From NCBI GenBank assembly GCA_030267965.1, contig BRYA01000015.1, forward strand, positions 1-63,269: a stretch of 63,269 nucleotides of DNA. The letters run 5' to 3'. The translations under genes were made by a program, and so were the position numbers. The notes beneath the pieces were generated by a model, which was not told the DNA's origin, searched no databases, and saw nothing but the letters and a program-made list of their open reading frames with translations. Positions 52,054 through 59,196 of the stretch are shown one piece after another (within the stretch, counting starts at the first letter, position 1; the number at the start of each line of letters is the position of its first letter). The DNA is from Triparma columacea (Eukaryota; Sar; Bolidophyceae; Parmales; Triparmaceae).

Positions 52054-52882
52054 TGGGTTAAGGATGTAGAAAATTTAGCGACCTCTAGCAATAGCATAAG
52101 TGCCTCTGGATCTTACCAGTTGCCCCAAACCAAAACGCCATTGAAATCTTTCTCCATCACTTTGTTGGAAGGACTGGCGAGTAAAGAAAAACAGATTTTA
52201 TACCACAAATGAAAACCAACGTTATTAGAGAGGAGAGTGAAAGCGGGAGGTGTAAGACTGTTATCTGAATATGGTGAGAGTTGCCAGCCATTCTCAATTC
52301 TGAACAAATTTGGACCAATTTCACAATTTTTTTTTGACAATTTCTCTAAAGCTTCTAAAGGACGTAATAGACATACATAGATTTTATTTTTGATTGTTAT
52401 ATATTTTGATATAGTTTTAGTGATTATAAAATCATATTAAAGATTTTAGTACTAAAATTTTTTATATTTCATATGTATTTTTATAATATCAAAATCTTTT
52501 AATAATCTTTTTATACATGCATATATATAATACACAAAATTCAAATAACCTCAACAAAATTTAAATTTTCATATAAAGTATATCTCCAAAACTTAAATTC
52601 ATATTCCTGATTTATTCATGATCATATAATTGAAATTATTTTAATTCATAGTTTACTTTATATATAATATTATCCAAAATTAAATCCCACAGAACGATTT
52701 TGGACGATTTTGGAACAATTTTTGTTTGTTGTTGTCAGACTGTAAATATACATATCTAATCGCCAACACTAGCCTCGAACAATTAACTACAACCCTATTC
52801 ACCAACCACACCACTCATTATCCCCAAAAGCACCAAAAAAGGGAAGGTACAACTACAACCTCGAAGCCAGGTCAGCACGACG
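52054..52882. other. AT-rich island
   Basis: Bases about 52370-52690 are extremely AT-rich (TATATATAATATT, TTTTATAATATC), unlike any other stretch here. A direct repeat ACGATTTTGG occurs twice at 52694-52713. No coding frame. Could be an organelle-DNA insertion, an origin-like or matrix region, or an old element. Confidence 0.7.
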
Positions 52883-53866
52883 ATGAAAATTCTCTCTGTT
52901 CTCCTATTTTTCGTGACCGTGGGTTGTACAACAAGTTTTCAATTGCCCCCCCGTGGTATTTATGGGCAGGCTCGCACGATTGTTTCTCAGCTTCATCTCA
53001 TAAAAGATGAATTTCCTCAAGACCTCAATCCATACCAGACTCTACGCTTGGACAGGGGGGCTAGCGCTGACGAAATCAAGGTGAGACGGCAAAGCAGCAT
53101 CCAAAACGATGCTCACGCGGGCTTAAGCCCTAACCCCTTGACACATCGCTCGTTTGCAGAAAAATTACCGAGAACTCTCAAAAAAATATCACGCTGATTC
53201 AGTTTATCAGCGCTCGGTGCTCCCCGGAGGCTGTACTGATGTTGATGATGTGAGAAATGAGTGGCAAAAGGTGAGAATCAGCAGAGGCAGAACGCAAATA
53301 TCCTCCCGCTAACCCCCCTTCCCCCTCCTCTAACAGATCAAGCTCTCCTACGAGTTGCTGTCCGATCGCAAGCGGAGGCTGAGGTGGGATCGGATGAATC
53401 TCGCCGACGACCCTGGTGCTGCCGCTGGTCGGGCTGTGCTCGGTTTGGTTGGGAGTGGGTTGGGGTTGGTTGGGAAGGGAGTGTTTATGGGAGCGAGCAT
53501 AGCTCTTGAAGCTCTTACCTCGGATGAGGAGGATGACGACGAGCCCAAAGTCGAGGTCGGAAAAGGGTGAGAATGGGAAATTTCCAATTCGTGCAAATCA
53601 AATTCTAACGCAACTCTGACGTAACTGTCCCCCCTATATCTCCCCTGATCGCAGTGAGGGCGGGCCTTCTTCCTCCTCCAGTACCCCTCTTCCACCCTTC
53701 CCACAAAAGATAACCCGAAGGCAGAAGGAGCGAGGTGAGAAAATGTCCTTCTCACCAGAACCCGCCACCTCAATAATACTAATCGCCCCCCCCACCCCCA
53801 ATCCCCAATCCCCCCCCACCTCTTTCAGTGCTGAAAGCGGTGGGGTCGCTAAACAATTTACGATAA
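52883..53866 (+). CDS. Plastid-targeted J-domain-like protein with HAD instead of HPD
   Basis: Five exons: 52883-53080, 53160-53270, 53337-53566, 53655-53734, 53829-53866; 218 residues. A signal peptide (MKILSVLLFFVTVGCTTSF) ends in T-T-S-F-Q-L-P, resembling the ASAFAP cleavage site of red-plastid presequences. The J-like domain has LNPYQTLRLDRGASADEIKK, KKYHADSV and a long loop, then WQKIKLSYELLSDRKRRLRWD. The invariant HPD is HAD, so it probably does not stimulate Hsp70 normally. A Gly-rich helix (AAAGRAVLGLVGSGLGLVGK) follows. Likely a stromal or thylakoid J-like scaffold. Confidence 0.82.
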
Positions 53867-53948: not shown

Positions 53949-56900
53949 TTACTCGATCTCCCCACGTTTGAGTTTCAAGGTGTGAAACTTTTCCTTCACC
54001 TGGTTGTACATCGGTAGGTGCGTCATGTTCCTCTTCTCGAGGCTTGCAATCTGGGTCTCGCATAGCTTAAGGGCCTTATCTACGGCTCTAATGGCATCCG
54101 TTGCGTTCGTTGCGGCGGCAGCCACAGAGTTTGTGATTGCCGCGCACCTTTCTCCAAACCTCAGGCTCTGGAGGGTTTCGTTCCCGTGCGAGTCGTCCAT
54201 CCTCGCGGCAATAACCGCTGTCGTCCTGCTGTTGCCCCCGAGACTGTTCCTGAGGATGCTCGTCAGTTTGCTCTCGAAGTAGGGCACGTGCCTCTTCTTC
54301 TCGACCAGGGCTGACACGACCTTGCCAAGGACCATCAGAGAGGTGTTGATGTTGATTGCTTCGTTCTTGTGGATTCCCTCAACCTGCGTGCGGGGGGGGG
54401 TAGGTGAGTGAGCCTAGACTTAAGCTCGGATGACTCAAATTTGTCGCTTCGCTCCTCCTCACCTTGCTCTTCTTCAACCTCTCCGAACCTGCCAAATCGA
54501 CCACGTGCAGAACGCTTTTCACTAGGCTGTCGAGTTTCTTGTTCTTTTGGCTAATGTTGAAGACGAGGATCGAGTGCGACCTGGAACTGCGGTCGTTCAT
54601 GGCAGTCGCCGCCCTCTTCTTGTTGGTCTCAGCCAAGACGAGAAGCTCCAGCATCATGCTCAAACTGCGGGAAGTGCGATGGTGAGTTAACAAGTGCTAC
54701 ACCGCAGGTACCGACGAAGTCTTCCGATCGAACCCTTACCTGGTTATTATTACTGTCCTCGCCCCCTGCATGACCTCTCCCCTCATGTGCACCTGATTGG
54801 TGCTTCCCAAGAGACAGGTAATCTGCTCGTTATAAATCTGAACATACTGACAGCTCAAAGTTCCGACGATCTCACTTTCGCTCTCCCTACTCCCTTCGTG
54901 GAGCCCGAGGCAGGAGCAGATCTCCGCGCACGCCCGGACGGCCAACCCCACATCTCCACTCCTAGTGTTCAGCACAGAGTGCACAGCATCGTCGACCGTC
55001 GAACCTCTCCTGCTGCTCGCCTCCTTGGAAGCCTCCCAGCAGTCAACCAGGACATTGTCCGGGCCAAACATGGTGTGGGTCTTTCCACTTCCTGTCTGCC
55101 CATACGCCAGCAGGCACGCGTTGATGCCGTTCAGTGCCGACACCACGGGGGCCCTCCCGCACTTTTCGTATACTTCCTTCTGGGCGGCGCTCTCGTTGAA
55201 GCAGCCCCCAGACATGAGGAAGGGGCGAATGCCGCGCCCGTCGATGTGCATTAGGACACGGCTCTTTTCTATTGCGAGCACCCTCGCGTCCCGCTTTTGC
55301 GGGGCTGCGAGGATCTGCTCAATCTCGCTACGACGGGACGAAGGGGGGACGGAAGACGGTCAGGTTTAGTCAATCAACAGCTAGCACGACCAATGATAAT
55401 TTCACTGCATCTCACTCACCTCTCCTTCGCATTACTTGTTAGCGCGTCTGAGAGGCTTGCATCAGTTGCGGATGGAAGAGGGGTCGCATTTTCTGGGGGA
55501 GAAGCGAAACGACGATTTTAAAGGGTTAGATGTCAAACACACAAAAGTCGATCTTTCCGCTCGTCGCTCATCGCTCGTCGCTCGTCGCTCGTCGTGCCTT
55601 ACCTGCCGCCTGCGCGCTGCCATTGCTAAGCTGCTCCTCCTCCCCATCCCCTCTCCCCCCCTCCCCCCCCTCCTGCTCCTCTTCCCCCCACTTGTTGAAC
55701 CTCTTCTTGGTCAACTTTGCCCTTTTCTCCCTCTCAACCTGCTCCTCTGCTTCCTTCATTGCCGTCTCCAATCGATCAGCTTCGAGAAGGGCCTGAAGTA
55801 TCTCGGGAGTAATGTCGCCACCGGCCTCGGTGAGGGCCTTAACATCATCCGAAGCGACCCTGAAATTTCCGTCAGTACCGTCCTCCTTTTCGTCACCCTC
55901 AGCTGCGAAGAGAGCGATCTTCTGCGGTGGGTAAAGCGATTCGCGAAAGAGGTTGGGATAATGCGTGAGATTTATGGCAGTGGTTGGGGAGGGGGGGGGG
56001 GGATTGTGCGGAAGCTTGCGCGAGGCCAGGCGTATTTGACGAGCGACGATTTGAATGCAATTTTTCCCCTGTTGGCCTCGCTCCTCGTCCATTCTCACCT
56101 TCTTTTCGTTGTATTGCTTGATATCCTCCTTGAGTTCCCCGCAGGGGATGAGGTCCGAAGCGGAAAGGGGGGAAGAGTCAAAAGGGTCGCGAGAGTCGCG
56201 GAGTAAGTGCCCCATAATAACCTTCCTCTCGCAAATCTTCCCGCTGCCCGGAAGCTTAACGGGGCTATTCATGACCCCTCCCATTAGGGGATCGACGAAA
56301 TCCTCGGGCAGCTTGGTGCCAAGCGTCACGGGGCCTCCGCCCTTATGCTGCTTCCTGAGAAGGCGCAGGCGCTGGTGGAGAGGAAGAAGGATAGAGCTCT
56401 TTTTCCTTGGCCCTGGGCGGAACCTCGACGCCACCTGGATCTTGAAGTCAGATGCCAAGGCACTTCCCTCCGCAACCCCCCACTTGTTCCTGGCAGGGAA
56501 GAGCTGCTCGAAGAAGATACTCTTCCACCGCCCCTGCTGCCTCTCCAGCTGCGCGTAGGGAAGGTACAACGATTTCTCATAGGCCAACGTCGAGCACGCA
56601 ATGTGCCACACCTTCTCTGACTCCCCCATTGTCCTGTTGAAGTCCTTGCTCAAGTTGTGAAGCGTCCCGATGGAAGAGATGGGAAGGAATTTGAGCTGCG
56701 TGGGTGGAGAGGAGGAGGATGGAAGGAGGGGAGGGGGGAAGTGAGGGATGAGGTGAGGGGGTAATCGCCTGCACCCCGAAATGCTCACTCCTTCTTCCAA
56801 ACCTCAACTCCTATTCCTAACTCACCGTATTCTCATGAAGTATGAAGAGAGAGAGCGCCTCGAACGATAGAGGAGCCGGAATTTCCTCCTCAATCTCCAA

Positions 56901-57104
56901 AGAACCTACAATTTCGAGCTCTTCTTCGGAGTATCCCCTTCCAGTTAAGATGTCGGGGGTCTTGGGAGTCGGGGGGGGGGCCAAATTAAGGTCATTCAGC
57001 AAGTTGTTCGTCGTTGGAGTAAAGGGTAGCTTGGAAGGTAATTTTGATTGGCCGAAGAGAGAGTTACTCACGTCAGCGAGCGGCGTGGAAGGGAGAGATG
57101 CCAT
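53949..57104 (-). CDS. Kinesin with F-box-like region and U-box inserted in the motor
   Basis: Six exons: 57104-56826, 56695-55603, 55492-55420, 55327-54740, 54664-54463, 54383-53949; 889 residues, frame continuous. A Ser/Thr/Pro-rich N-terminus precedes an F-box-like stretch (~85-130, LSFEALSLFI, SSIGTLHNLSKDF, VWHIACSTLA). The kinesin motor starts at FKIQVASRFRPG (~177-188), is interrupted by a U-box (~221-290: PEDFVDPLMGGVMNSPVKLP, ICERKVIMGHLL, DPFDSSPL, LIPCGELK) and a coiled coil (~400-445), then resumes with P-loop AYGQTGSGKTHTM (~556-568), NDRSSRSHS, VDLAGSER and YFESKLTSILRNSLGGNS. The short tail is helical. The domains suggest a microtubule motor that is also an E3 ligase. Confidence 0.88.
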
Positions 57105-57278: not shown

Positions 57279-59196
57279 ATGTCAAAAATCAACATGGACG
57301 AATGGGTCCTTGTCGACACATCGGAACAAGCTGCAGGGAAGCCCAGCGTACCAAGGAACCAAGATCCCTCTATGTTCCACGTAATAGCATGGGACGTTGG
57401 TTACGAAAGAGGCAGTTGGGCAACCGCCGTCCAAGAAGAAACGGTGGAGGAGGAAGTTGAAGAAGAGGTTGTCGAGGAGGAGGAAGAAAAGGAGGAGGAA
57501 GATCTATCTGAGAGAGCATGGTTGACTGAGGCAGAGGACGCCTTCGACAACATCTATGGATTTGGCAAGGATATCACGGGAAAGTCGGAGGAGAGCGTCC
57601 CAGAGGGCGACACACTTGCAGAGAGGATTGCAGACGAACTCGTCAACGAGGCGATCAAGAGCGCAATCAGAGAAGAAGAGGAGGCCAATCTAACAGAAAC
57701 AACAACGGCAGAGCCCCCAGCTGAGCCTTCAAAGGAGCCATCTGTGGAACCTTCAAAGGAGCCATCAGCGGAACCTGCCAAGAAGAAGGTCACCGAAGCC
57801 ATCAGCGGACCTGCCAAGAAGAAGGTTACCATCAAGACAGCGCAAAAGACACCTAACAAAAAAACCTCAAAGCCGAGGGCAGGACTCACCTCCCCTTTCC
57901 TGGAAAAGCGCAAAAAATCGATCATGATGAAGGCCAAACTGGCCAACACCATCAAAGCGCAGGCATGCAAAGATCCAACGTTGCTGTTCTCGAGGACGTT
58001 CCCAGACACTAAGTTCTGGAAAAAGTTCCGCAAGCCCGTGTTTCACAGCTACGGTCGCAACAACACCAGGCCGACGTTCGGAGGATCTGTTTGGGGCGGG
58101 TACATGCTATCGTTCAACATCGGTCCCCAAACTTTGGTAAGAGGAGAACGAGGATTGTGTAATTTGTAGAACCATTCCTAACCCCACAACTCACTTTACG
58201 TTACCGCCGCACCAATTCCTATTCCTACCTATTTTGAAGCCGAACTACCCAAACTCCAAGCAAGTTGTTAGGTCGGCTGAGTTCAAGTACAATGCAGTCT
58301 CAGCCGACCCCTCCATCCCTGGAGCGTCAATCCTCAAGAAACGCGACGTCGTCTCTGTCCCCTTCAACCCGCTCTTCAACCCCATGATCATTGATGATGG
58401 GGACATCAAGGTTTCCTTGGGAAAGACTGACACTAGCATCACGGCGTCCCAGGAGAAGGTAAGGACCGCAAGCAAGATCGACGGAACGAAAACCCGCCCC
58501 CCCCCAAGCCCCCAAAGGGCAAACAAAAAGAAGGAGAAAGCCGTCAAGGTTAACAAGGAGAATACGGAAGTTAGAAATAAGAAGCCCCTTGAGGTTAACG
58601 GCCTGCAGGATATGAAGAGGAGGGACATCTCGGAACTCAAAGCATTCAAAGCGCCTCCTGTTGACGTCGAAGATGTGACCAAGGCAATCGTCAAGTTCAT
58701 CATTCCCAACGCAACTACCAAGACCTGGGAGGATACTCGCTCATACCTCGACGCGACCTTCCTCAAGTCCATTAAGTCAATCTTCATTGACGACATCCCG
58801 AACAAGAGGGCGAAAGAGCTGAGGAAGATTTGCACCAAGAGCAACATCACCGTTGAGAGTCTCAAGAAGAAAACTTTAATTGGCAGCGTTTTGTTTGACG
58901 TCCTCAGGAAGGTGTACGAGGAAAAAACTGGGGAGAAGATCTTGGTCAAGTCGGAGGAGGGAACTGAAGGAATCAGCGAGGTCGAGGGGGGGGAGGAGGA
59001 GGGAGGGGAGGGAGGGGAGGGAGGGAGGGGGGGAGAGATCAAGGAGGTCGAGGATCCTCTCGTCAGGGAGGTCATCACCGTGTACAGGTGCAACCCGAGA
59101 CTCATGAAGAAGCTCCCGCCCAAATACTTCCTCAGCATCCCCTCTGCTGGAGTTACAGTTGAACGGGGATTGTCCGCTCAAGATCTCGTCAAGTAG
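57279..59196 (+). CDS. Protein with a dynein-stalk-like segment
   Basis: Two exons: 57279-58136 and 58240-59196; 604 residues. N-terminal region acidic with Glu runs, then E-P-S-K/V repeats and AKKKVT repeats; basic middle. Residues about 445-520 read VTKAIVKFIIPNATTKTWED, ATFLKSIKSIFIDDIPNK, TVESLKKKTLIGSVLFDVLRK. Hydrophobic spacing resembles the dynein heavy-chain stalk/MT region (K-x-W, F-L-x-x-L, F-x-x-D-x-I-P, F-T-P-E-x-V, then a Trp/Leu helix). No AAA modules present. The segment after it is Gly/Glu-rich and the C-terminus ends SAQDLVK. Probably a flagellar or microtubule-associated protein; homology is by eye only. Confidence 0.7.

Follow-up and report, generated by a model that had tools for sequence, protein, structure and literature searches.

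As a rule, kinesins and ubiquitin ligases are distinct proteins that are brought together by adaptors. A minus-strand gene at positions 53949-57104 of contig BRYA01000015.1 of Triparma columacea (the window, i.e. the whole stretch of 63,269 nucleotides analysed) raises the question of whether both can reside in one polypeptide, and of what such a protein might do. The original prediction, made from the sequence alone, described a kinesin motor that is split by a U-box and preceded by an F-box-like region. This arrangement was supported by hidden Markov model searches, profile-profile comparison and structure prediction. The gene is read here as a PLHQ kinesin, in which an F-box-like region is followed by a motor with an LPLHQRL loop after strand beta-1 and, in some members, an E4/UFD2-type U-box; that such a protein brings ubiquitin machinery to microtubules is the reading tentatively preferred, at a little under an even chance.

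A single splice-continuous frame was found to encode beta-1, the U-box, a helical segment and then the P-loop with the remaining motor, and exon 2 by itself codes, with no break, for everything from the F-box-like region to the U-box, beta-1 included. The locus had been predicted to be one frame-continuous gene, and this was upheld by an open splice model and by recurrence of the domain order in 104 of the 185 sequences assembled as described below. The predicted product of 889 residues with five introns was revised. The stretch 56098-55922 starts with GTGAG, ends with CAG and, at 177 nucleotides, is in frame; its 59 alignment columns held no residues in any of the four relatives compared (i.e. 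P0001-P0004). Because these 59 residues are missing from all four relatives, the stretch was read as a sixth intron that had been overlooked, giving a product of 830 residues. P0001, the protein of Triparma laevis f. inornata, shares 515 identical residues with the window protein over 789 aligned positions (65%). On the opposite strand, a 268-residue open frame (55400-56206, plus strand) lies antisense to the U-box exon; it had no Pfam match and is probably an effect of composition.

The Pfam kinesin profile matched residues 465-768 (profile positions 48-326; E = 7.6e-72; 242.5 bits against a cut-off of 29.3). As the part of the profile left unmatched is beta-1, which is located before the U-box (E = 2.9e-15), the U-box interrupts the motor between beta-1 and the P-loop part, as had been predicted. 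Motif searches showed the P-loop, switch I and switch II to be intact, again in agreement with the prediction. In the predicted structure of the orthologue P0001, beta-1 forms strand 153-161, the range aligned on solved kinesins begins at 145-154, and the whole motor fold is retained despite the insert, such that the predicted fold spans the U-box-bearing segment. The best fold matches of this model were to several kinesin families within 1 Z unit of each other, and its best PDB sequence matches were to kinesin-1. The first motor loop can, on this evidence, hold a whole domain without loss of the motor signatures.

The distribution of this architecture was examined in 184 proteins obtained from three protein searches (two of which listed 120 of 7913 and 120 of 1839 matches) together with the window protein. 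Kinesins with a U-box made up 104 of these 185 sequences, which derive from genomes, transcriptomes and metagenomes. Using a widened P-loop pattern, a recognised P-loop was found before the U-box in none of the 104 and after it in 102, whilst switch I and switch II were each present in 103. The beta-1 motif stood just before the U-box in 97 and every signature was present in 94; of the seven sequences lacking the motif, one carries the variant RFCP and the other six start at the U-box or a little way ahead of it. Nineteen diverse members could be aligned over their full length and exhibited a common order, i.e. an N-terminal helical region ending in W..LF..LWP.R.KW, beta-1, PLHQ (consensus LPLHQRL), either a U-box or a gap, a conserved helix with the consensus PELL.ALLEA, and finally the remaining motor. 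Since members without a U-box also have the insert, the U-box is regarded as an extra piece within it. Among the matches listed, U-box members were named from Triparma, Mallomonas, a chrysophyte and Chromera, and members without a U-box from Cymbomonas, Amorphochlora and one entry with a Cercozoa taxid; Euglena, judging by a naming style that we take to be its own, presumably belongs with the latter. No diatom was named among these mostly unnamed matches, which does not imply absence, and the taxonomic picture is partial, most members being unnamed metagenome proteins. At least 11 listed U-box members bear names in the style of transcripts, which places the joined order in the RNA of other species. 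Four long U-box kinesins of 1289-1452 residues (P0037, P0056, P0064 and P0163) additionally carry PF11861, a combination unique among the members listed. The search for the same order elsewhere, proposed with the prediction, thus returned U-box kinesins, many from protists; judged from these sequences, the arrangement is that of a widespread protist kinesin family, which had not been foreseen.

Residues 223-293 matched the Pfam U-box profile with 56.6 bits against a cut-off of 21.4 (E = 2.9e-15), placing the predicted U-box above threshold. The closest solved relatives were E4B (1.1e-13), followed by UFD2 (1.8e-12) and E4A. Nineteen other U-boxes were fetched from the same genome; among the 18 that could be aligned, a UBE4-like one was closest (score 133, the next scoring 59). 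No second U-box kinesin was found in this genome, the sole other match to the segment being the UBE4-like U-box. Across the family, the proline of the DPF motif is retained in 102 of 104 U-boxes, and the position that we presume to match CHIP Ile235 is occupied by L, F, I, M or V in 100. Separately, five very similar U-boxes of the CPIT(L/F)ELPIDPV type were observed on contigs C311, C429 and C626 of the genome, which suggests a recent expansion.

An F-box-like character of the region before the motor was indicated by an hhalign comparison with 12 F-boxes of the same genome, which gave a score of 34.6 (probability 88) as against 12.4 or less for 50 shuffles. Skp1/F-box complexes headed a short list of weak fold matches for this region, which is present also in family members without a U-box.

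The origin of the U-box was approached with a tree of the motor, built from 178 of the 185 rows with the U-box columns excluded. The omitted rows were P0009, P0110 and P0112 (by name), P0003 and P0006 (no switch II) and P0073 and P0107 (no recognised P-loop). This tree was obtained by a quick method, is rooted on few outgroups and contains long branches (P0118, Chromera and others). A single branch with a Shimodaira-Hasegawa-like approximate likelihood ratio (SH-aLRT) value of 98 united 171 rows, from which a group of 13 rows without a U-box diverges first. Four changes of the U-box label were required on the quick tree relative to PLHQ members without a U-box, and eight relative to all others, a figure that counts 22 rows without a recognised PLHQ, fragments included. 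Constraining the 101 U-box rows to be joined raised the likelihood by 31.9 and was not rejected by the approximately unbiased (AU) test (p-AU = 0.818). A single gain of the U-box would suffice, with no need of independent gains, a reading kept tentative because of the long branches. Viral contigs scanned with the beta-1/U-box segment for a viral or mobile origin gave seven pattern matches, and none of these codes for a relative.

If PLHQ kinesins do bring ubiquitin machinery to microtubules, the motor would bind microtubules and hydrolyse ATP, the F-box-like region would dock Skp1 and hence the SCF core, and the U-box would recruit an E2, or E2~ubiquitin, or extend chains in the manner of E4 enzymes. 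The machinery so carried might act on tubulin, on microtubule-bound or flagellar proteins, or on the kinesin itself; a flagellated stage would be a guess at the setting. Several observations weigh against this reading. The linchpin position, defined as the column aligned with the Arg of E4B DPFNR (which we take to be the linchpin), contained Arg in none of the 104 family U-boxes (G 58, N 30, S 6, K 2), and the Arg looked for in a U-box E3 is Ser in the window protein; Arg was present in five of the 18 other aligned U-boxes of the genome. The presumed equivalent of CHIP His260 is variable (C 53, Q 14 and H 14 of 104). No Pfam F-box match was obtained for the window protein, nor any match across its N-terminal 194 residues. 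F-box matches, none better than E = 0.004, were confined to 3 of 63 and 4 of 62 relatives; taken alone they mean little, because the same scans scored unrelated families equally well or better (EzrA 0.00092; AAA_22 in 13 of 62). Foldseek with the F-box fragment returned 14 matches, none significant (best E = 2.1); six were Cdc4 chains, SLY1 and cyclin F (SLY1 and cyclin F being F-box proteins), and the rest were unrelated, with MIT domains, bromodomains and leptin among them. The predicted F-box-like helix set is retained on the profile-profile score but not on Pfam. Finally, no expression, biochemical or localisation record was found for any family member.

In an alternative reading the U-box is a non-catalytic binding module, with the fold kept and perhaps also an E2- or ubiquitin-binding face; the motor would then transport or sense ubiquitin machinery, or cargo marked with ubiquitin, with no activation of E2~Ub. 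We consider this a real possibility, although short of probable. It would fit the absence of Arg from all 104 linchpin positions and has a parallel in IFT172, a flagellar transport protein that, in the available part of the report, binds ubiquitin by a U-box-like domain and does not auto-ubiquitinate robustly in vitro (PMC13290226). However, 13 of the 18 other aligned U-boxes of the genome also lack Arg, and the linchpin may not always be needed: the residue has been called essential, yet FANCL has Ser there according to the portion consulted of one paper (PMC5095918), and a 2026 preprint, likewise in the part consulted, holds that some cases do without it (PMC12919000). The idea that linchpin loss proves the ligase inactive was rejected in view of FANCL and these 13 U-boxes. 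As the papers differ on the need for a linchpin, and with the scaffold kept and the Arg replaced, the built-in ligase activity of the original prediction is putative and unproven. Alternatively, the two modules might serve the turnover of the kinesin itself, by self-ubiquitination or by ubiquitination as an SCF receptor, leading to its removal once mitosis or flagellar resorption is over. Self-modification is common among F-box receptors and U-box ligases, and the motor carries the two modules in the same chain, but this leaves the position of the U-box in one fixed motor loop unexplained, and we regard it as rather improbable. An assembly or gene-model artefact joining two genes might be suspected from the seven exons and from the lack of any transcript seen for the source species; this was rejected as exceedingly improbable because the same order is common to 104 of 185 sequences of diverse provenance, and the unbroken coding of exon 2 also argues against it.

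A conserved kinesin family with an F-box-like region and a motor-embedded U-box would make ubiquitination depend directly on microtubule position or ATP state, and the marking of flagellar or spindle proteins on the microtubule would become testable. A bolder form of the preferred reading, i.e. delivery of ubiquitin machinery to microtubules, would have one polypeptide act as microtubule motor, SCF-docking receptor and E4-like U-box ligase, with ATP state or microtubule binding gating ubiquitin transfer through the loop-tethered U-box. Such a walking ubiquitin ligase, representing an ancient protist motor class, seems to us unlikely.

A flagellar setting for the PLHQ kinesin is suggested by three weak hints. 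The named carriers of the family are, we mostly assume, flagellates at some stage. Head-to-head with the kinesin, with start codons approximately 175 bp apart, lie two open frames (57279-59193, plus strand), presumably belonging to a single gene as separate exons. The second is similar to the stalk of an axonemal dynein heavy chain (Pfam MT E = 0.0013, below the cut-off; best PDB match DNAH10, E = 0.00057), and a promoter in common with an axonemal gene would accord with a flagellar role of the kinesin. Parmales, in the part of the source consulted, have nearly full flagellar gene sets, diatoms having lost part or all of theirs (PMC10328945). Downstream, a convergent gene (52841-53570, plus strand) appeared J-domain-like by eye (NPYQTLRLDRGASADEIK ... 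ELSKKYHADSV), and no Pfam match for a J-domain was obtained frame by frame. The features of the kinesin gene are collected in Table 1.

Table 1. Features of the PLHQ kinesin gene, in window coordinates
Feature	Positions	Strand	Basis
Whole gene, ATG 57104 to stop 53949	53949..57104	minus	Open splice model, 830 aa
Seven exons	57104-56826, 56695-56099, 55921-55603, 55492-55420, 55327-54740, 54664-54463, 54383-53949	minus	Splice model
Exon 1: low-complexity N terminus and first F-box-like residues	56826..57104	minus	Splice model, family alignment
F-box-like helical region and linker (FLPISS...VWHIACSTLA...WKSIFFEQLFPARNKW)	56480..56695	minus	hhalign profile comparison
Motor strand beta-1, FKIQVASRFRP, residues 177-187	56414..56446	minus	Motif search (motif at residue 179)
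PLHQRL family signature after beta-1, start of insert	56366..56383	minus	PLHQ invariant in 19/19 aligned members
U-box, E4/UFD2 type, in loop between beta-1 and remaining motor	56099..56308	minus	Pfam E 2.9e-15; 60.9 bits; E4B 1.1e-13
In-frame GT-AG intron, 177 nt (59 residues)	55922..56098	minus	Columns empty in 4 relatives
Rest of insert: conserved helix (ALTEAGGDITPEILQALLEADRLE...) and low-complexity linker	55420..55921 (exons 55921-55603 and 55492-55420)	minus	Helix 306-345 of P0001 model
Second motor part, from ARVLAIEKSRVLMHIDG on, three exons	54138..55287	minus	Splice model, Pfam, fold comparison
P-loop AYGQTGSGKT	55078..55107	minus	Motif search
Switch I NDRSSRSH	54574..54597	minus	Motif search
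Switch II DLAGSE	54481..54498	minus	Motif search
Short C-terminal tail, no long stalk	53949..54137	minus	Orthologue-model helices 751-774, 781-800 (P0001)

The original prediction knew of no characterised protein with this domain order, and no U-box or F-box kinesin was named in the title or abstract opening of the papers listed by literature searches. The main text of a survey of 1624 kinesins in 105 architectures, as far as consulted, is without U-box, F-box or ubiquitin (PMC2867816), and neither type of kinesin appears in the parts checked of PMC4327156 and PMC10328945. Databases hold a precomputed kinesin and U-box domain pair; as far as found, the architecture is visible there yet undescribed. 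The PLHQ kinesins look like an uncharacterised protist kinesin family, whose motors may ubiquitinate proteins when bound to microtubules.

Four known systems invite comparison. The C-terminal domain of IFT172 provides a U-box-like fold in a flagellar microtubule-transport protein, but IFT172 is an intraflagellar transport subunit and not a motor, and the likeness need not mean relationship (PMC13290226). F-box SCF receptors (PF00646, PF12937) share the helical region that matches the F-box profile; here that region is divergent and a kinesin motor occupies the usual place of the substrate-binding domain. The E4/UFD2 ligases (UBE4A, UBE4B and yeast Ufd2; PF04564) resemble the window protein in U-box sequence, a likeness limited to the U-box, as the Pfam scan detected neither a UFD2 core nor any further E4 domain; the window protein differs too in its replaced linchpin Arg and in the embedding of the U-box within a motor. 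With the kinesin superfamily (PF00225) it shares the motor fold, the P-loop and switches I and II, and it is set apart by a U-box insert of >200 residues after beta-1, an F-box-like region before the motor and a C terminus lacking a long stalk.
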